From Desulfobacteraceae bacterium (GTDB lineage: Bacteria; Desulfobacterota; Desulfobacteria; Desulfobacterales; SURF-7), in the NCBI GenBank assembly GCA_003599865.1, contig QZKS01000088.1:70682-106055 (forward strand): DNA of 35,374 bases, read 5' to 3'. The translations under genes and the position numbers were made by a program. Shown piece after piece: positions 15,862 through 23,491 of the stretch. The notes beneath the pieces were generated by a model. It was not told the DNA's origin and did no database searches. It worked only from the letters and a program-made list of their open reading frames with translations. Each line of letters begins with the position of its first letter. Position 1 is the first letter of the stretch.

Positions 15862-15898
15862 TCACTCGGTCTGGATGCAATAATTGGATGGAGGATGT

Positions 15899-17671
15899 AT
15901 GAAAATTCTAGTGGTGGGAAGCGGCGGCAGAGAACATGCCCTTGTCTGGAAAATTGCCAAAAGTCCGAAAGTGAAAACAATCTTCTGTGCTCCCGGTAAT
16001 GCGGGTATTGCGGAGCTGGCCACGTGTATTCCAATCAATGCAGAGGATATTCATAGCCTTCTTGTATTTGCAAAAAAGGAAAACATTGATCTTACGGTTG
16101 TCGGTCCGGAAGCGCCCCTCGCCAATGGGATTGTGGATCTTTTCGAAGCGCAGGGATTGAAAACCTTTGGTGCTTCCAGAAAAGCGGCTGCGCTTGAGGC
16201 CAGCAAATCTTTTGCCAAAAAACTGATGAACAAGTATCATATTCCGACAGCCAAAGGACAAACCTTTACATCTCTTGCCAAGGCAAAAAAATATGTGAAT
16301 TCAACAGGCGCTCCTATTGTTGTAAAAGCCGATGGTCTGGCGGCCGGAAAAGGGGTCTTTGTCTGCACTACCGAAATCGAGGCCCATAAGGCATTGGATC
16401 AGATATTTACCCAAAAAGCGTTTGGTGATGCCGGTAAGCAGGTGGTGATTGAGGAGTGTTTAAGGGGAGAAGAGGCCTCATTTCTTGCTTTTACCGATGG
16501 AAAAACCGTTCTTCCCCTGCCGTCATCACAGGATCACAAAGCGATTTTTGATGATGACAAAGGCCCCAACACCGGTGGTATGGGGGCGTATTCTCCAGCT
16601 CCTGTTGTAACAGATCATATTCATCAGAAAATTATGAATGAGGTGATGATCCCAACTGTCCGGGCCATGGAAGCAGAAGGCAGAAAATATAAAGGAGTAC
16701 TGTATGCCGGCCTGATGATCGATAGGGACAGTATTCGCGTTCTGGAATTCAATGCACGGTTTGGTGACCCGGAGGCCCAGCCCCTGCTGATGCGTCTGAA
16801 AAGTGATATCATTCCGATTATGGAGGCAATATCCGAAGAGCGTCTTCATGAATGTACACTGGACATAGACACCCGGGCAACGGTCTGCGTAGTCATGGCT
16901 TCAGGAGGATATCCCGGGGCCTATCAGAAAGGGATGCCGATTTCCGGGCTCGACAAGGTAAAACGCATGCGGGATACCTATGTGTTTCATGCCGGAACCG
17001 GAAAAAAGAATGATACCATCATTGCTACCGGCGGCAGGGTGCTGGGAGTGACAGCCCTTGGTGATACCGTAGAAAAAGCCATTCAGAAATCATATTCGGC
17101 AACCGCGAAAATTGAATGGAAGGATGTTTACTTTCGCAAGGATATCGGCCGGAAGGCGGTGAAACGTTTATCCCGAAAGCCATTGGTGGGTATTGTCATG
17201 GGGAGTGACTCGGATCTTTCGGTGATGGAAGAAACCATGTCAGCCCTGCGTCAGTTCGGCGTTCCTTTTGAAATCACGGTGGCTTCTGCACACAGAAGTC
17301 CGGAACGGGCGGCAAAATACGCCACAACAGCCCGTGATCGCGGTTTGAAAGTAATTGTTGCCGCCGCCGGTCTTGCCGCCCATCTTGCCGGAAGTCTTGC
17401 CGCCCACACAACCTTGCCGGTCATTGGTGTTCCCATTAATGCATCGGCATTGCAGGGGTTCGATTCCCTGCTTTCCACCGTACAGATGCCGCCGGGTATA
17501 CCGGTTGCAACTGTTGCGATAGGCAAGCCAGGTGCCAGAAATGCCGGAATCCTGGCAGTGCAGATTCTGGCGGTTTCCGATCCGGACCTTGCCGCAATGC
17601 TGGACACCTTTAAGTCGGAAATGGCGGCACAGGTGGAGAAAAAAGCCGGGAAGCTTGAAAAGATTCAATAA
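15899..17671 (+). CDS. purD: PurD-PurE fusion: phosphoribosylamine--glycine ligase / N5-CAIR mutase
   Basis: 590 residues made of two complete purine-synthesis enzymes. Residues 1-425 are PurD (GAR synthetase): KILVVGSGGREHAL at the N-terminus, VVGPEAPLANGIVD (68-80), KADGLAAGKGV (143-153), the DDDKGPNTGGMGAYSPAP loop (218-235) and LEFNARFGDPEAQ (282-294). Residues 427-590 are a class I PurE: GIVMGSDSDLSVME (431-444), SAHRSPER (463-470) with the catalytic His465, AAAGLAAHLAGSLAAHTTLP (488-507) and LLSTVQMPPGIPVATVAIG (524-542). Only about ten basic residues (RKAVKRLSRK) link the halves, and there is no stop or frameshift between them. Steps 2 and 6 of IMP synthesis are thus in one chain. The ATG at 15899 follows GGAGG; a TTG at 15884 is rejected. 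No PurK is in the window. Confidence 0.96.
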   Translation: MKILVVGSGGREHALVWKIAKSPKVKTIFCAPGNAGIAELATCIPINAEDIHSLLVFAKKENIDLTVVGPEAPLANGIVDLFEAQGLKTFGASRKAAALEASKSFAKKLMNKYHIPTAKGQTFTSLAKAKKYVNSTGAPIVVKADGLAAGKGVFVCTTEIEAHKALDQIFTQKAFGDAGKQVVIEECLRGEEASFLAFTDGKTVLPLPSSQDHKAIFDDDKGPNTGGMGAYSPAPVVTDHIHQKIMNEVMIPTVRAMEAEGRKYKGVLYAGLMIDRDSIRVLEFNARFGDPEAQPLLMRLKSDIIPIMEAISEERLHECTLDIDTRATVCVVMASGGYPGAYQKGMPISGLDKVKRMRDTYVFHAGTGKKNDTIIATGGRVLGVTALGDTVEKAIQKSYSATAKIEWKDVYFRKDIGRKAVKRLSRKPLVGIVMGSDSDLSVMEETMSALRQFGVPFEITVASAHRSPERAAKYATTARDRGLKVIVAAAGLAAHLAGSLAAHTTLPVIGVPINASALQGFDSLLSTVQMPPGIPVATVAIGKPGARNAGILAVQILAVSDPDLAAMLDTFKSEMAAQVEKKAGKLEKIQ

Positions 17672-18404: not shown

Positions 18405-19121
18405 TTAAAAAGCGTATGACGCTCCTGCTCCGCCATATACATCCACATCCTGTTCCGGGAGTACGTCATCATCAAAGGTATCCGTATAGGCGATAAAACC
18501 GTTAACAGACAGTGCTTCGGTAACCGCGTATCCAAGCCCCAGTGAAACGTTATAATCATGAAGCCCGCTGTCTGTGCCGGCCGACATGTCTTCTCCTGCA
18601 TAACCCGCTGTGAAGCCGATATCCATGCTTAGTTTCTCGATAATTTCTCTGCTGTACCCGATATTCCAGCTGATATAGTAATCTTCTACCTCGTCGAAAT
18701 CATAATATACAGTGATACCTGTGCTGAATCCGTCAAGTGGCGTGATGCTGATGCCGCCATATACCTCACGCGTTCCTTGTCCGCCGGCCGGAAATAAATA
18801 TTCAATATATCCGAAAGACAAAGAAACAGACTTGATTTCCATTCCATATGAGAAGGTCAGATCGATTTCGGAAAACTCTCTGTCATCGAGGGTGTTGTTA
18901 TAATCATCAATGTCTATATTCCCCCAGACATTCAAACCAAATCCTCCCTTTGTCACATCCAGAGAGGGCTGAACAACCATACCATCGTTGAATGTAATTC
19001 CTCTCCATACATAGGCGGAGTTTACATCCGTACCAAATGAAGCATCCGCTGCAATCCCATTTCCGACAAAAATTCCTGATAGAACGGTTATAAAAAGTGC
19101 CAAACAAACAAACTTCTTCAT
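18405..19121 (-). CDS. TorF-type putative outer-membrane porin
   Basis: 238 residues from ATG 19121, preceded by AAGGAGAAAG; upstream in-frame starts are rejected because MKKFVCLALFITVLSGIFVG opens a clean signal peptide (cleavage near GIA-AD). The mature part starts with FGTDVNSAYVWRGITFNDG, VVQPSLDVTKGGFGLNVWGN, which is the Gcw_chp/TorF signature (SxYVxRGxS...QPxLD...GfxxgvWgSn). It continues as alternating polar and hydrophobic strands and ends in YGGAGASYAF with a terminal Phe, as expected for a barrel inserted by the BAM machinery. Substrate unknown. A -24/-12 promoter at 19252-19267 suggests control by sigma-54 and an enhancer-binding activator. It has its own terminator. Confidence 0.9.
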   Translation of the reverse strand: MKKFVCLALFITVLSGIFVGNGIAADASFGTDVNSAYVWRGITFNDGMVVQPSLDVTKGGFGLNVWGNIDIDDYNNTLDDREFSEIDLTFSYGMEIKSVSLSFGYIEYLFPAGGQGTREVYGGISITPLDGFSTGITVYYDFDEVEDYYISWNIGYSREIIEKLSMDIGFTAGYAGEDMSAGTDSGLHDYNVSLGLGYAVTEALSVNGFIAYTDTFDDDVLPEQDVDVYGGAGASYAF

Positions 19122-19251
19122 GAACTTTCTCCTTATAATATTGATAAAAGTTGATACTGCTTCTGTTTTTGGGCGATAGACAACTGATTCCGTTTCCGTA
19201 TTGTTTGAACCTCCTTTCTCTTTAGAGTTGATGTTTCTGTTTTTTGGATAT

Positions 19252-19267
19252 TGCATTGGATGTGCCA
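19252..19267 (-). promoter_or_regulatory. Candidate sigma-54 (-24/-12) promoter of the porin gene
   Basis: On the minus strand TGGCACATCCAATGCA has the exact -24 element TGGCAC (19262-19267), an ATGCA -12 element (19252-19256) and the required 10 bases between GG and GC. Only one base of the -12 element differs from TTGCA. It leaves a leader of about 120 bases before the porin ATG. Confidence 0.6.
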
Positions 19268-19659
19268 ACGGATTAAGGTCATTGTTTTAGATTATATGTA
19301 TTTATATTTTAGGTGGTTAATATGTTTTAACGTTTTGATGATCCAAAATGACGAACAATATATATTTCATTTTTGTATATTAAATATTATAAAAATACAT
19401 TTATGTGAAAAAGCGTGACCCGAATTGATCAAAAGTGTTCACAGCGGATGGGTTACAGGCCATCGGATTCAAATGGGAGTTGCTTCAGGCAATTGCATGT
19501 CATTTTAAGATTGTTGCTACTATTGACTTTTTGGGTTTCTTATGAAACTATACCCAGTCGATTCGGTAATTGGAATCCAGGGTTTTCTTGAAATAATATA
19601 TTATATATTTCAATAGATTATGTTTTTTTAATATATTTTCCGGATGAAGGAGTAGGTTC
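19268..19659. other. Intergenic region between the porin and rnfB
   Basis: About 390 bases of AT-rich divergent promoter region without a convincing gene on either strand. It would hold upstream activator sites for the sigma-54 promoter at 19252 and the promoter of rnfB. I found no TGT-N10-ACA NifA site. A 22-base AT-rich inverted repeat with 6-bp arms (GAAATA...TATTTC, 19590-19611) lies about 50-70 bases before the rnfB start, and a weak TTGACT lies near 19523. Confidence 0.4.
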
Positions 19660-21795
19660 ATGTCGGCACTCATCGTAATGGGGACTCTTGGCGTTATCAT
19701 TGGTATTGGTTTGGCGTTGGCCTCTAAAATATTTTACGTATATGTTGATCCATTGGTATTGGCGGTCGAGGCGGCCTTGCCTGGTGCAAACTGCGGCGGA
19801 TGTGGAATGCCGGGCTGCTCCTCCAATGCGGAAGCGATTGTGGCCGGTAAGGCGGCACCCAATTCCTGCGTTGCAGGCAGCGCTGAGCTGGCGGAAACTA
19901 TCGCCGCTCTTCTGGGAGTATCCATTGAAGCCAAAGAACCGGACATCGCTCTTCCCGGCTGTACATACGGGCCGGATAAGGCGGATTTGAAATATCGATA
20001 TGATGGAATACATGACTGCCGTGCTGTTTCGTTATTAAGCGGCGGAATGAAGGTTTGCCATGTGGGCTGCCTTGGACTGGGAACCTGTGCCAGAGCATGC
20101 CCATTTGGTGCCATTCATATGGGGCCGGAAGGATTGCCGGTTGTGGATGAAAAAAAATGCACCGGGTGTGGCACCTGCGAACGGGTTTGCCCGAAACATA
20201 TCATTACCCTTTCTTCCATAACCAGAAGGATTATCCGGGAATATACGACGGATGACTGCACCACACCATGTCAGCGGCAATGTCCGGCCGGAATCAACAT
20301 TCGGGAATATATTCATCAGATTGCAATCGGTGATTACAACCGGGCTGTTCAGGTGATCAAAGAGCGGAATCCTTTTCCAACCGTGATCGGCAGAATCTGT
20401 CCCCGTCCATGCGAAACAGACTGCCGGCGGAAACATATTGATGAGGCCGTGTCCATCAATGCATTGAAACGGTTTGTTGCCGATTATGAACGGGAAAACA
20501 AGAATCGGGTTTTACCATTCAAAGCGCCTTCTACGGATCGCAAGCTTGCGGTTATCGGAGGAGGAATGGAAGGATTGTCCACAGCATTTTTTAGTGCCAG
20601 ACTCGGACATGAACCAACCGTATTTGAGGCCACATCTCAGCTTGGAGGGCTTCTTCGGACGGCTATCGCAAGAAATCGGCTGCCGCTTGAGATTCTGGAT
20701 TGGGATATTGAAGGTGTTCTTGAAATGGGCGTCAAGGTTCAGACTGGAAAGGCCCTTGGAAAAGATTTTACTATCAGTACACTGCTTGCAGATGGCTTTG
20801 AAGCCGTATTTCTGGCCTCCGGAGGATGGGACAATCGTCTTGCCAGAGGCACCGGATCGGATATTGAGTCGTCGATTCCCGGCACCTATTTGCTGATTGA
20901 TCTGTTGAAAAACAATGCGGCATCTGAAACGGAAATTCCGATACAAGACAACGTGGTCATCGCAGGAGGCGGAAAATCTGCATATGATGCGGCAAAAATC
21001 TGTAAGGACCGGGGTGCAAAAGAGGTTACCATACTGCAGAGAGGTGTTTTTCCGGATGATCCGGAAGATCTGGACACCTTACAAAAGCTGGGGGTAAGGG
21101 TTATCGGAAATTCCGGAATCTGCAGCCTGAAAGGAACAGATGATCGTTTGGAGTCGCTGGCGTATGCGGATTTGTCGGATCTTACTCGTACCGCCATCCC
21201 GGTAAACGTTCTTTTCCTTGCATCCGGTCGTTTCCCGGAATTGATTTTTGTGAAAATCAAACCCGAAGAGAGTAAAGAGCCTGAAATGAACGGTCCGGTC
21301 GCATGGGAGGGGATTTCTCCCTATAAGCAGCCGGCCTATAAGGAAGAAATCGGTCTGCTATCGGAAGGTGATCCGATTACCGACATGAGTGCTGCGATTA
21401 AGGCGATTGCGTCTGGAAGAAGGGGTGCTGTTTCCCTTCATAAGGTGATGTATGAACTGGATCTGGAACTTTCAGCAAATGTACTGACACCGAATTTTCC
21501 TGTGCAGGATGTAGATCACCTTGATCATGTGATTGCAACACCTCGTCAAATCATGCGGATTGAAAAAATAAACAATGCAGAAGAACAGGAAATCGAAAAG
21601 GGCCTTGATGAAAATATGGCAAAAGCGGAAGCGGATCGCTGCCTGCAATGCGGTCTGATCTGCTATAAGCAAACGGAATCGACCATTGCACCTGCTCATT
21701 TATTTACCACAGCCGATATTCCAGAATCTTCCTTTTCCGGAACAGAATGGAAGGCGGCAAAGATTTCGTCATCTGATGTCAACCGGATACACTAG
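19660..21795 (+). CDS. rnfB: RnfB fused to a GltD-like flavoprotein domain
   Basis: 711 residues, against ~190-330 for ordinary RnfB. Residues 1-25 are a membrane anchor. Residues 43-70 hold the Fe-S domain NCGGCGMPGC (C45, C48, C53, then C70). Ferredoxin-type clusters follow: C133, C137, C143, C147 (CLGLGTCARACPFGAI) and C167, C170, C173, C177 (CTGCGTCERVCP). From about residue 195 the chain becomes like the small subunit of glutamate synthase: CTTPCQRQCPAGINIREYI, IGRICPRPCETDC (245-255), an FAD-type GxGxxG at 300-305, a second dinucleotide motif VVIAGGGKSAYDAA (432-445) and a C-terminal Cys group near 661-668. The Rnf complex couples ferredoxin and NAD redox to ion pumping, and RnfB carries electrons. 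The added half could let this subunit exchange electrons with a pyridine nucleotide. Ribosome site GAAGGAG. No rnfA, C, D, E or G is in the window. Confidence 0.9.
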   Translation: MSALIVMGTLGVIIGIGLALASKIFYVYVDPLVLAVEAALPGANCGGCGMPGCSSNAEAIVAGKAAPNSCVAGSAELAETIAALLGVSIEAKEPDIALPGCTYGPDKADLKYRYDGIHDCRAVSLLSGGMKVCHVGCLGLGTCARACPFGAIHMGPEGLPVVDEKKCTGCGTCERVCPKHIITLSSITRRIIREYTTDDCTTPCQRQCPAGINIREYIHQIAIGDYNRAVQVIKERNPFPTVIGRICPRPCETDCRRKHIDEAVSINALKRFVADYERENKNRVLPFKAPSTDRKLAVIGGGMEGLSTAFFSARLGHEPTVFEATSQLGGLLRTAIARNRLPLEILDWDIEGVLEMGVKVQTGKALGKDFTISTLLADGFEAVFLASGGWDNRLARGTGSDIESSIPGTYLLIDLLKNNAASETEIPIQDNVVIAGGGKSAYDAAKICKDRGAKEVTILQRGVFPDDPEDLDTLQKLGVRVIGNSGICSLKGTDDRLESLAYADLSDLTRTAIPVNVLFLASGRFPELIFVKIKPEESKEPEMNGPVAWEGISPYKQPAYKEEIGLLSEGDPITDMSAAIKAIASGRRGAVSLHKVMYELDLELSANVLTPNFPVQDVDHLDHVIATPRQIMRIEKINNAEEQEIEKGLDENMAKAEADRCLQCGLICYKQTESTIAPAHLFTTADIPESSFSGTEWKAAKISSSDVNRIH

Positions 21796-21823
21796 AACTT
21801 GAAATTGGCGAAAGGAGATCTCA

Positions 21824-22276
21824 TTGGCAACCGAAGACGGGATTGTCATTAGACTTGAAACAAAGACAGCATGGGTGAAAACCAAAAAATCCAGTGCATG
21901 TGAGTCCTGTGCCTCTCGAAAGTCGTGTAATGTAATGGGCGGTGGTGATGAAATGGAGGTGGAGGTCATCAACTCAGCCGGAGCAGCTATCGGGGATCAG
22001 GTTGTCATCAGTTTTGAAACAGCATCCCTTTTAAAGGCTACATTTTTATTATATGTTTTTCCAATCCTGTGCATGTTTGCAGGTGCTGTAATCGGTCAGG
22101 AAGTTGCCGTTCAGATTCAGCTCGGTGCTTCCGTATCGTCGGCTGTTTTCGGGTTTCTTTTTTTTCTGATTTCAATCGTTTTTATACGGGTAAAAGCGAA
22201 CAAAATGGGAAGGCAGGATCGATATCGTCCCCGCATTATTCGTATCAAGAAGCCGATGCGCTCAAATTCTTCCTGA
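21824..22276 (+). CDS. RseC/MucC family protein
   Basis: 150 residues from a TTG at 21824, supported by AAAGGAG six bases upstream. The N-terminal soluble part begins MATEDGIVIRLETKTAWVKT and holds a Cys group CESCASRKSC (C26, C29, C35), then MEVEVINSAGAAIGDQVVIS; two membrane helices follow (about 72-92 and 103-122) and a basic C-terminus. This order is that of the RseC/MucC family (PF04246 type). In E. coli RseC helps the Rsx (Rnf-like) complex keep SoxR reduced; in anaerobes the gene often accompanies rnf genes. Here it lies 28 bases after the RnfB fusion, clearly the same operon, so it probably assists that redox protein at the inner membrane. It converges on the KamA-like gene with only 14 bases between stops. 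Confidence 0.88.
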   Translation: MATEDGIVIRLETKTAWVKTKKSSACESCASRKSCNVMGGGDEMEVEVINSAGAAIGDQVVISFETASLLKATFLLYVFPILCMFAGAVIGQEVAVQIQLGASVSSAVFGFLFFLISIVFIRVKANKMGRQDRYRPRIIRIKKPMRSNSS

Positions 22277-22290
22277 GGGTATATTCTTTT

Positions 22291-23331
22291 CTAAGCATCC
22301 GGATATTCAAATAGTTCCCCCCTGTAATTGCGCACAATATGTCTGTCATGGTTTGATTGATCAATATAATTGCATTGAAGCGGTACTTTCCCTCCCCCTT
22401 TTGGAAGGTCAATCATATACCGGGGGATGCATAAACCCGATATGTTTCCTTGCAGATATTCCAGAATTTTTAGACCGGTTTGTATGGGGACCCTGAAATG
22501 ATGGGTTCCCTGTACAGGGTCTGGATGATGAATGTAGTATGGTTTGACCCGAATTTGTACCAGTTTCCGCATCAGTTCCTTCATGATATGAGGGGAATCA
22601 TTTACCCCTTTTAATAAAACAGTCTGGCAGCCAAGTGGAATACCCACGTCGGCGAGAATGGAACAAGCTCTTTGGGACTCTGGTGTGATTTCATCCGGAT
22701 GGTTAAAGTGTGTATTGAGATAAATCGGATGGTATTTTCGGATGGTCTCCGCCAGATCATCGGTGATCCGCTGCGGGAGCACACAGGGAATTCTGCTATG
22801 GATTCTAATGATTTCAACATGCTGTATTTTTTTTATTTGCTTCAGGATGTTATCCAGTGTGTTATCGTTCAGCATGAGAGGATCGCCACCGGATAAAATG
22901 ACATCCCGGATTTGTTGATGATCACGTATGTAGGCAATCCCTTTTTCGATTGAACTCTCGTGTTGGGGAAGGTGTCGTCCGATTCTTCTTTTGCGCATAC
23001 AGTACCGGCAATACATGGCGCACTGATTTGAAACCAGGAATACAACACGGTCCGGGTATCGGTGAATCAGGTTGGGTGTTGGCGACTGAAGCTCTTCATA
23101 CAGAGGGTCGTCTTTCAGTGAACTGTTTTCAAGTTCTCTGATATCCGGAACCGCCTGTTTCCATAACCCATCCCCATGTTTTTTGATCAAGGAGAGATAG
23201 TGCGGCGTGATCTTCATCGGATATTTTTCGATGACCCGGTCGATATGATTTTCATCGATTGAAAAATGTTCCGCAAGCTGGATACGGCTTGTGATGCTGT
23301 TGTGGTTTATGTATGGGCCTTTAGGCATCAT
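22291..23331 (-). CDS. KamA family radical SAM protein (lysine 2,3-aminomutase-like)
   Basis: 346 residues from the ATG at 23331; an adjacent ATG (23328) and an upstream in-frame TTG (23352) are alternatives and no clear ribosome site is visible. The radical SAM cluster motif is CAMYCRYC (C104, C108, C111), followed by ILSGGDPLML. Comparison by memory with clostridial lysine 2,3-aminomutase shows the PLP lysine retained (PKGGGKVP, K315) and both Asp that bind lysine (D271 in HHPDPVQGTHHF, D308 in YMIDLP). The enzyme should therefore interconvert L-alpha- and L-beta-lysine, free or on elongation factor P (EpmB). The length resembles EpmB, but the GGGK motif is more KamA-like. No ablB acetyltransferase, efp or epmA is nearby. 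Confidence 0.87.
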   Translation of the reverse strand: MMPKGPYINHNSITSRIQLAEHFSIDENHIDRVIEKYPMKITPHYLSLIKKHGDGLWKQAVPDIRELENSSLKDDPLYEELQSPTPNLIHRYPDRVVFLVSNQCAMYCRYCMRKRRIGRHLPQHESSIEKGIAYIRDHQQIRDVILSGGDPLMLNDNTLDNILKQIKKIQHVEIIRIHSRIPCVLPQRITDDLAETIRKYHPIYLNTHFNHPDEITPESQRACSILADVGIPLGCQTVLLKGVNDSPHIMKELMRKLVQIRVKPYYIHHPDPVQGTHHFRVPIQTGLKILEYLQGNISGLCIPRYMIDLPKGGGKVPLQCNYIDQSNHDRHIVRNYRGELFEYPDA

Positions 23332-23491
23332 GTTTTTTTTCGATATACACAATATTGATCAATTGAATGTATTGATAAAGAATTTTCCTACGACATTAAT
23401 TTTTATTGTAATCCCATATCTCCATAAACGAGGCAACAAAAGATCGGATACAAGCGGTTATTTTTTCAAACCAAATGATGCCGCCTTGAAG

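Follow-up and report, generated by a model that had tools for sequence, protein, structure and literature searches.

Introduction

In Desulfobacteraceae, cosmopolitan carbon oxidisers of marine sediment, Rnf2 is described as a core, constitutively formed complex and is drawn as a link between the NADH, ferredoxin and NADP pools (PMC11887813). This Tol2-type complex has a long RnfB with nicotinamide adenine dinucleotide (NAD)-binding sites and an RnfC without an NADH domain (PMC5109826; PMC11887813). According to one study, the RnfC of Rnf2 requires a partner other than NAD, yet to be identified (PMC5109826). Here, we describe a long RnfB encoded away from the rnf clusters of its genome. The analysed DNA, called the window, is a stretch of 35,374 nucleotides from a Desulfobacteraceae genome (assembly GCA_003599865.1, contig QZKS01000088.1, here C10:70682-106055). 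It encodes a 711-amino-acid (aa) fusion of RnfB to a GltD-like half, followed by rseC. We propose that the product of this gene is probably supplied in trans, from beside rseC, to the cytochrome-linked Rnf2 (Tol2-type) ion pump as an alternative RnfB subunit. Window-type fusions are named group A, and fusions that form the last gene of a cytochrome-rnf cluster are named group B.

Other described systems also bear on this locus. In Clostridium ljungdahlii, deletion of rseC abolished autotrophy and repressed rnf, and RseC acts positively on rnf expression, perhaps indirectly (PMC9124969). The Bfu family of bifurcating enzymes includes hydrogenase, Nfn, Fdh, Mbh, Nuo and other types; in the text of that description, the term Rnf occurs once, in the reference list (PMC9304861).

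Results

The fusion gene and the rnf inventory of its genome

The open reading frame (ORF) of the fusion starts with ATG, ends with TAG and lies 28 bases upstream of rseC on the same strand. Because both flanking ORFs are on the opposite strand, the two genes form a bicistron of their own. The protein runs from the RnfB membrane helix and the PF04060 cluster through two Fer4 sites and Fer4_20, an entry domain type of GltD/NfnL/DPYD proteins, to a flavin adenine dinucleotide (FAD)-type Rossmann fold, a second Rossmann domain and a C-terminal Cys motif. Pfam matches over the cut-off were PF04060, Fer4/Fer4_7 (residues 137-183), Fer4_20 (200-281) and Pyr_redox_2 (295-527). In NCBIfam, the first half matched the rnfB model TIGR01944 barely above its cut-off (72.4 vs 68.7), and the second half gave strong GltD-type matches of up to 298 bits, yet under the models' own cut-offs. 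The fusion, its length and the adjoining RseC had been noted in a first-pass annotation of this DNA and were confirmed by ORF, Pfam and NCBIfam analysis.

That annotation had suggested a search of the genome for rnfCDGEA, a domain search and a survey of the distribution of the fusion; the second of these found the FAD-binding fold of Pyr_redox_2 in the second half, and the other two are reported below. The source genome (5.0 Mb, 97% complete) contains PF02508 in six places, which correspond to two rnf clusters (C36 and C78) and one nqr cluster (C8). The C36 cluster is of the cytochrome c3-rnfCDGEA kind and ends with its own 695-aa RnfB-GltD, which is 36.6% identical to the window fusion over the full length. 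The C78 cluster is a classical rnfCDGEAB with an RnfB of 304 aa. The other rnf genes are absent from the window and present elsewhere in the genome, and the isolation of the fusion-rseC pair, also remarked on earlier, stood. A profile search of the whole genome returned the window gene as the single RseC match. A truncated rnf cluster at a contig edge, with this gene as its last member, was considered and rejected: the gene is at about 90 kb in C10 and is followed by at least 13 kb, the clusters are on C36 and C78, and the complete rnf cluster just past the contig end that had been considered as the case against isolation was not found.

Group A in place of a missing in-cluster rnfB

The incompleteness of metagenome-assembled genomes (MAGs) bears on every absence reported here. 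The sets of 48 and 20 genomes and the rnf regions inspected were chosen by hand, not at random, and some rnfD and rnfG genes were hidden by the ORF filter in the inspection of rnf/nqr regions.

By tblastn, eight A-carriers (G044, G110, G061, G109, G102, G015, G123 and G083) had no RnfB domain next to their Rnf2-type cluster, for which rnfC and rnfA were found. In the A-carrier G055, B survives after rnfA only as a fossil of its first 76 residues, at L094:7893-8114. A genome-wide RnfB profile search (E <= 1e-15) found A as the sole RnfB in 7 of the 20 chosen genomes (G008, G044, G048, G065, G094, G102 and G134), and in the remaining A-carriers of this set, further short RnfBs, an in-cluster B or parts of such a gene were also present.

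Furthermore, an A-type gene lies directly after rnfA in three loci (L152, L154 and L156). RseC is next to it, on the opposite strand, in L152 and L156, and L153 has an rnfA-like piece just before A. For Desulfotignum phosphitoxidans, a cytochrome gene with rnfCDGEA is reported, and the available text names no rnfB in the set (PMC4046663); two Desulfotignum MAGs carry A. Together, the missing in-cluster rnfB and the position of A after rnfA in three loci provide genetic evidence for A proteins being RnfB subunits. Since A is also the sole RnfB found in several genomes, it is very probably an RnfB of Rnf2 in trans.

Distribution of group A and its pairing with RseC

Within the family (12 genomes), A was present in six genomes and full-length B in seven. 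RseC followed A in all six cases, with flanking genes differing in several genomes. All seven B genes were inside an rnf cluster and lacked an adjacent RseC; contig ends truncate two of these loci.

In the order, A was found in 93 of 146 genomes, a count that includes partial matches, among them a 278-aa fragment at a contig end (G018). RseC was directly downstream of A in at least 72 of the 93 (adjacency counts for RseC and NuoF in this survey are lower bounds), elsewhere in the genome in 18 and not found in three. Among cultured strains, Desulfatibacillum alkenivorans DSM 16219 gave an A match, and its locus also contains an RseC ORF. No second match at E <= 1e-110, that is, no full B, was present in 30 A genomes. 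Rnf2-type RnfC was detected in 86 of 93 A genomes compared to 30 of 53 others (Fisher p = 7e-7, kinship not corrected for). nqrF was present in 64 of the 146 genomes. The co-occurrence of A with Rnf2-type RnfC, the missing in-cluster rnfB and the A genes after rnfA favour one option of the first-pass annotation, namely that the fusion acts inside an Rnf complex encoded elsewhere.

Two further candidates were rejected. That A works without Rnf disagrees with the 48 chosen genomes, where all 19 A genomes have PF02508 and all nine PF02508-free genomes lack A. Three apparently Nqr-only A genomes (G008, G048 and G065) were found to have Rnf2-type RnfC on other contigs.

Loss of the NADP(H) signature in group A

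Conservation was compared between 33 A and 12 B sequences, in which five A rows start late owing to an in-frame TGA. Within A, the RnfB Fe-S region had a mean pairwise identity of 76%, Fer4_20 of 78% and the FAD fold of 63%. For the second Rossmann domain, the value was only 39%, compared to 75% within B, whose rows are mostly near kin of the window's family. The B signature GGGNxAxD...YRR...MPAN was lost in all 33 A sequences aligned. Its second Arg was Arg in 12 of 12 B sequences, Glu in 30 of 33 A sequences and Gly in the window protein. The intact NADPH-binding Rossmann fold of GltD/NfnL enzymes (GGGNxAxD, YRR..MPAN) is thus absent from A. Lys270 and Arg340 of A, both invariant in the A alignment, align with Lys170 and Arg239 of StnC, for which roles have been described (PMC10482914).

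Two dinucleotide-binding motifs had been assigned at first; the FAD motif is intact, and the second is only a degenerate one. Direct electron transfer between ferredoxin and NAD(P)H, also suggested then, is weakened and probably wrong, because the signature is lost throughout the A alignment and retained in the in-cluster paralogue.

The RnfC proteins of cytochrome-type clusters (that of C36 and 28 more) lack the glycine loop and the ECEP motif for flavin mononucleotide (FMN)/NADH of classical RnfC, of which four were compared. A check over 21 loci showed the same loss, with both motifs in only two classical rows and with partial rnfC matches in L154 and L164. As judged from these motifs, the NAD(P)H site of the complex may be on RnfB in group B, and A should be an RnfB head without such a site, unless it has switched to NAD(H), as its GGG loop allows.

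Origin of the fusion

Quick trees were built with Shimodaira-Hasegawa-like approximate likelihood ratio test (SH-aLRT) support only. The GltD-like halves of A and B grouped together, separate from 16 other GltD-like proteins (support 99), and so did their RnfB halves, separate from 41 standalone RnfBs (support 97). Two independent fusions were rejected, since A and B stand together in both trees. In the C-domain tree, A was a clade (support 100) on a long stem, joined with three in-cluster B proteins, two of them from Desulfarculaceae (support 95). In the simplest history, the fusion would have arisen once, within an Rnf cluster; one branch, which still has in-cluster members, would have lost the NADP(H) signature and then relocated, together with rseC in many lineages.

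A bifurcating-type NuoEF pair upstream of group A

NuoF is directly upstream of A on the same strand in at least 45 of the 93 A genomes, across 27 family codes and with gaps of 24-561 bases. G085 has an upstream NuoF in another locus set, whose 69 loci were not deduplicated, and is outside the 45. NuoE precedes NuoF in all six loci that reach far enough. The reference NuoF (595 aa, region L056:4129-6430) has an FMN/NADH domain, an N-terminal 2Fe-2S and two C-terminal 4Fe-4S sites. Its top PDB match is 7t2r_B, the B subunit of a bifurcating NiFe hydrogenase (857 bits). The published Bfu marks of BfuB are Phe182, Ala202 and Met204 (PMC9304861). Ala202 and Met204 are present in NuoF; Phe182 could not be matched, and NuoF and 7t2r_B both have Phe180.

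These neighbours suggest, at somewhat less than an even chance, that A joins a HydBC/StnAB-like bifurcating NuoE-NuoF pair (BfuBC) as its third partner, in which case electrons from NADH (at the FMN of BfuB) and ferredoxin would enter or leave Rnf together via the FAD and the RnfB clusters of A. A occupies the operon slot often held by BfuA, although 48 of the 93 A genes have no adjacent NuoF in the rows used. The second half of A has the large subunits of NfnABC and StnABC as its best solved matches, but Pfam found no Fer2/NuoG domain in A, and the NuoG-like A1/A2 clusters of BfuA are therefore missing; A would fit the Bfu family only as a Type 4-like arrangement without BfuA. The NADP(H) signature is lost as though the nucleotide site came from another subunit, and the NuoF match to 7t2r_B with Ala202 and Met204 points the same way, whereas the unmatched Phe182 does not. 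In G136 and G117, RseC comes directly after NuoF, without an intervening A; in G060, NuoF precedes a contig-end piece of A. However, the NuoEF pair of the source genome is on C56, unlinked to A (its NuoF is 79% identical), and a NuoF of this kind in G128 is followed by NuoG-like and molybdopterin genes, so that the pair has other partners. Because of these last two observations, the coupling of A to NuoEF is presented as the leading novel reading and not as a verdict.

Its fullest form is put forward still more tentatively: in about half of the order's A genomes, A, NuoE-NuoF (BfuBC) and the Rnf2 core might form one machine, with NADH/ferredoxin confurcation (or reverse bifurcation) directly into or out of the Na+/H+-pumping Rnf. 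The nucleotide site would then have shifted from RnfC to RnfB-GltD in group B and to a NuoF partner in group A.

Features of the window and side observations

The coordinates of the fusion and its parts are given in Table 1. Its C-terminal motif is a possible further Fe-S site, as suggested by its Cys pattern. The AlphaFold model of the fusion has a mean predicted local distance difference test (pLDDT) score of 72, with residues 92-141 below 50. Foldseek template modelling (TM)-scores were low (0.36, root-mean-square deviation about 15 Å), which we think is due to unsure domain placement in the model; the E-values and sequence matches carry the structural argument.

Table 1. Position of the fusion gene, its domains and rseC in the window
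Feature	Coordinates	Strand	Basis
Group-A RnfB-GltD fusion gene, 711 aa	19660..21795	+	Pfam, NCBIfam; orthologues in 93/146 order genomes
N-terminal membrane helix, residues 1-25	19660..19734	+	AlphaFold helix 2-24; aligned with RnfB anchors
RnfB 4Fe-4S domain PF04060, residues 40-71, Cys45/48/53/70	19777..19872	+	Pfam; Cys invariant in A1 and A3
Two ferredoxin-type 4Fe-4S sites, Cys133/137/143/147 and Cys167/170/173/177	20056..20208	+	Pfam; alignments
Fer4_20 entry domain of GltD-like half, Cys200/204/208/247/251/255, Lys270	20257..20502	+	PF14691, 81.5 bits
FAD-type Rossmann fold, residues 295-425	20542..20934	+	Pyr_redox_2; conserved in A; Foldseek matches NfnABC/StnABC
Degenerate NAD(P)H-type Rossmann domain, residues 428-515	20941..21204	+	39% vs 75% identity (A vs B); YRR..MPAN of B absent
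C-terminal RCLQCGLIC motif, residues 660-668	21637..21663	+	Three Cys invariant in A3
rseC, 150 aa, sole RseC found in genome	21824..22276	+	PF04246, 122.8 bits (cut-off 24.4), full-length family match; single genome match

An in-frame TGA is present at the invariant first cluster Cys (position 45) in five A genes of two families (G039, G134 and G098; G125 and G085; loci L074, L077, L087, L082 and L085) and at the same Cys in two RnfBs of other rnf clusters (G130 and G083; L131 and L132). In each of the seven genes, a perfectly paired stem of 5-8 pairs, closed by a CGGGT or CGGGTT loop, begins 9-11 bases downstream. Some stem of at least 5 pairs was found in nine of 27 A genes with a Cys codon. 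Of these nine, L091 carries a GGGT loop that is differently offset, and in L026 the loop of a comparable GC stem is longer. The folding energies of the TGA genes were by themselves unremarkable (z -0.6 to -1.6), and the five A genes are near kin and thus few independent cases. SelB was over the cut-off in five of the seven TGA genomes, with no match over the cut-off in G125 and G085, both fragmented MAGs. The pattern suggests selenocysteine in the RnfB of the seven TGA genes. Codon 45 of the window gene is TGC.

The upstream neighbour of the pair (18405-19268) has no Pfam match and appears outer-membrane-like by eye. The downstream neighbour (22291-23352, minus strand) encodes a KamA-family radical S-adenosylmethionine protein of 353 aa, under the cut-off of the lysine 2,3-aminomutase equivalog, and a relative of it is also downstream of the A-rseC pair in L054 and L055. 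The window further contains a PurD-PurE fusion (glycinamide ribonucleotide synthetase and aminoimidazole ribonucleotide carboxylase) at 15884-17671 (plus strand). DUF3786 proteins with an N-terminal PF04060 FeS domain (L017:6468-7274 and L018:6828-7637) occur in at least two copies in the source genome.

Discussion

The window protein has the membrane anchor, the PF04060 4Fe-4S domain and the ferredoxin-type clusters expected of an RnfB. Its gene is not encoded with rnfCDGEA, unlike the A-type genes of the three loci described above. As the alternative RnfB of Rnf2, the RnfB half of A would dock on RnfCDGEA, accept electrons from reduced ferredoxin and pass them to the membrane flavins, from which they would reach the c-type cytochrome of the cluster, with Na+ or H+ pumped in the process. 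The GltD-like half, with FAD kept and the NADP(H) signature lost, would serve as an electron relay or docking surface and not as an NADPH dehydrogenase. Where a genome has both A and B, a single Rnf core would be served by two interchangeable RnfB heads, of which B would be able to take NAD(P)H electrons and A would not by itself. RseC is probably an Rnf helper in activation or assembly, as the genetics of C. ljungdahlii suggest.

Several observations weigh against the assignment of A to Rnf2. The source genome has an intact in-cluster B, and A is not required there on present evidence. The contig of G044 ends 940 bases past rnfA, which limits its missing-rnfB call. G071 (99% complete) has an rnfC, D, E, A cluster (L106, C50:138000-151000) with no RnfB domain genome-wide, no A-type gene and no RseC, and such an Rnf core may do without RnfB or with another protein. 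Seven A genomes have no detected Rnf2-type RnfC; six of them are less than 90% complete, and the seventh, G086, is 91% complete and has a classical Rnf with its own RnfB. The pairing with RseC is not universal, since in the named records the A genes of Desulfobacula, Desulfotignum and Desulfamplus have no neighbouring RseC. The bare GGG loop is kept in 28 of 33 A sequences, and relaxed constraint is limited to one domain, so that A may still bind NAD(H). In the N-domain tree, the three B rows that join A in the C-domain tree fall within A beside the A rows L157 and L158, so that A is not strictly monophyletic.

It is improbable that A is a stand-alone membrane ferredoxin:NAD(P)H oxidoreductase that works with RseC independently of Rnf, the separate membrane dehydrogenase offered as an option in the first-pass annotation. 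The isolated bicistron, the FAD fold with the GGG loop and the position of A outside the rnf cluster in the loci seen, save L152, L154 and L156 (and L153 with its rnfA-like piece), would suit such an enzyme. However, the NADP(H) signature is lost in every A sequence aligned, A is absent from the nine PF02508-free genomes among the 48 chosen, and A substitutes for the in-cluster rnfB. There is little likelihood, too, that A and RseC form an assembly or repair module for Rnf/Nqr (Fe-S or flavin loading) rather than a working electron-entry subunit: A is paired with a membrane protein tied to Rnf function and also occurs in genomes with an intact B, but its RnfB electron-transfer Cys residues and Fe-S region are conserved, and seven of the 20 chosen genomes had no other RnfB.

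The assignment of A as an RnfB of Rnf2 proposes an RnfB for Rnf2 clusters without one, and a single core would often have two candidate RnfB heads with differing nucleotide sites. NuoEF is pointed to as a possible bifurcating partner, and the electron donors and acceptors of Rnf2, not settled in print, become testable. If the link of Rnf to the Bfu family is real, a single machine would combine electron bifurcation with redox-driven ion pumping. Neither the detached A-rseC pair nor the A-NuoEF link or a coupling of Rnf to Bfu was found described among the open-access papers listed in the literature searches, with supplements and subscription journals outside their scope. The initial caution that long RnfBs were already known was justified by the Tol2-type RnfB in print (PMC5109826). 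A is thus a variant of a known subunit; its parts are ordinary, and their arrangement is unreported as far as searched.

Compared to the Rnf2-type RnfB of Desulfobacula toluolica Tol2 (about 700 aa, with NAD-binding sites), A has a similar length, the same domain order, the FAD fold and, like it, a companion RnfC without NADH motifs or an NADH-binding domain. Unlike it, A is encoded next to rseC and apart from the rnf cluster, no longer has the NADP(H) signature and forms a derived clade in the C-domain tree. The GltD-like FAD half of A aligns over its length with StnC and the large subunit of NfnABC (Nfn-Bfu BfuA), including the Lys and Arg pair shared with StnC; unlike these, A has no NuoG-like domain, is fused to RnfB and has a degenerate second Rossmann domain. 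Classical RnfBs align with the first part of A (7zc6_B and 9eri_B at about residues 5-192, 8ahx_B at 3-93), but lack the GltD-like half. The rseC of the window matches RseC/MucC over its full length. It adjoins a detached rnfB, unlike the link to rnfC in C. ljungdahlii, and also unlike Escherichia coli, where rseC is linked to rpoE.

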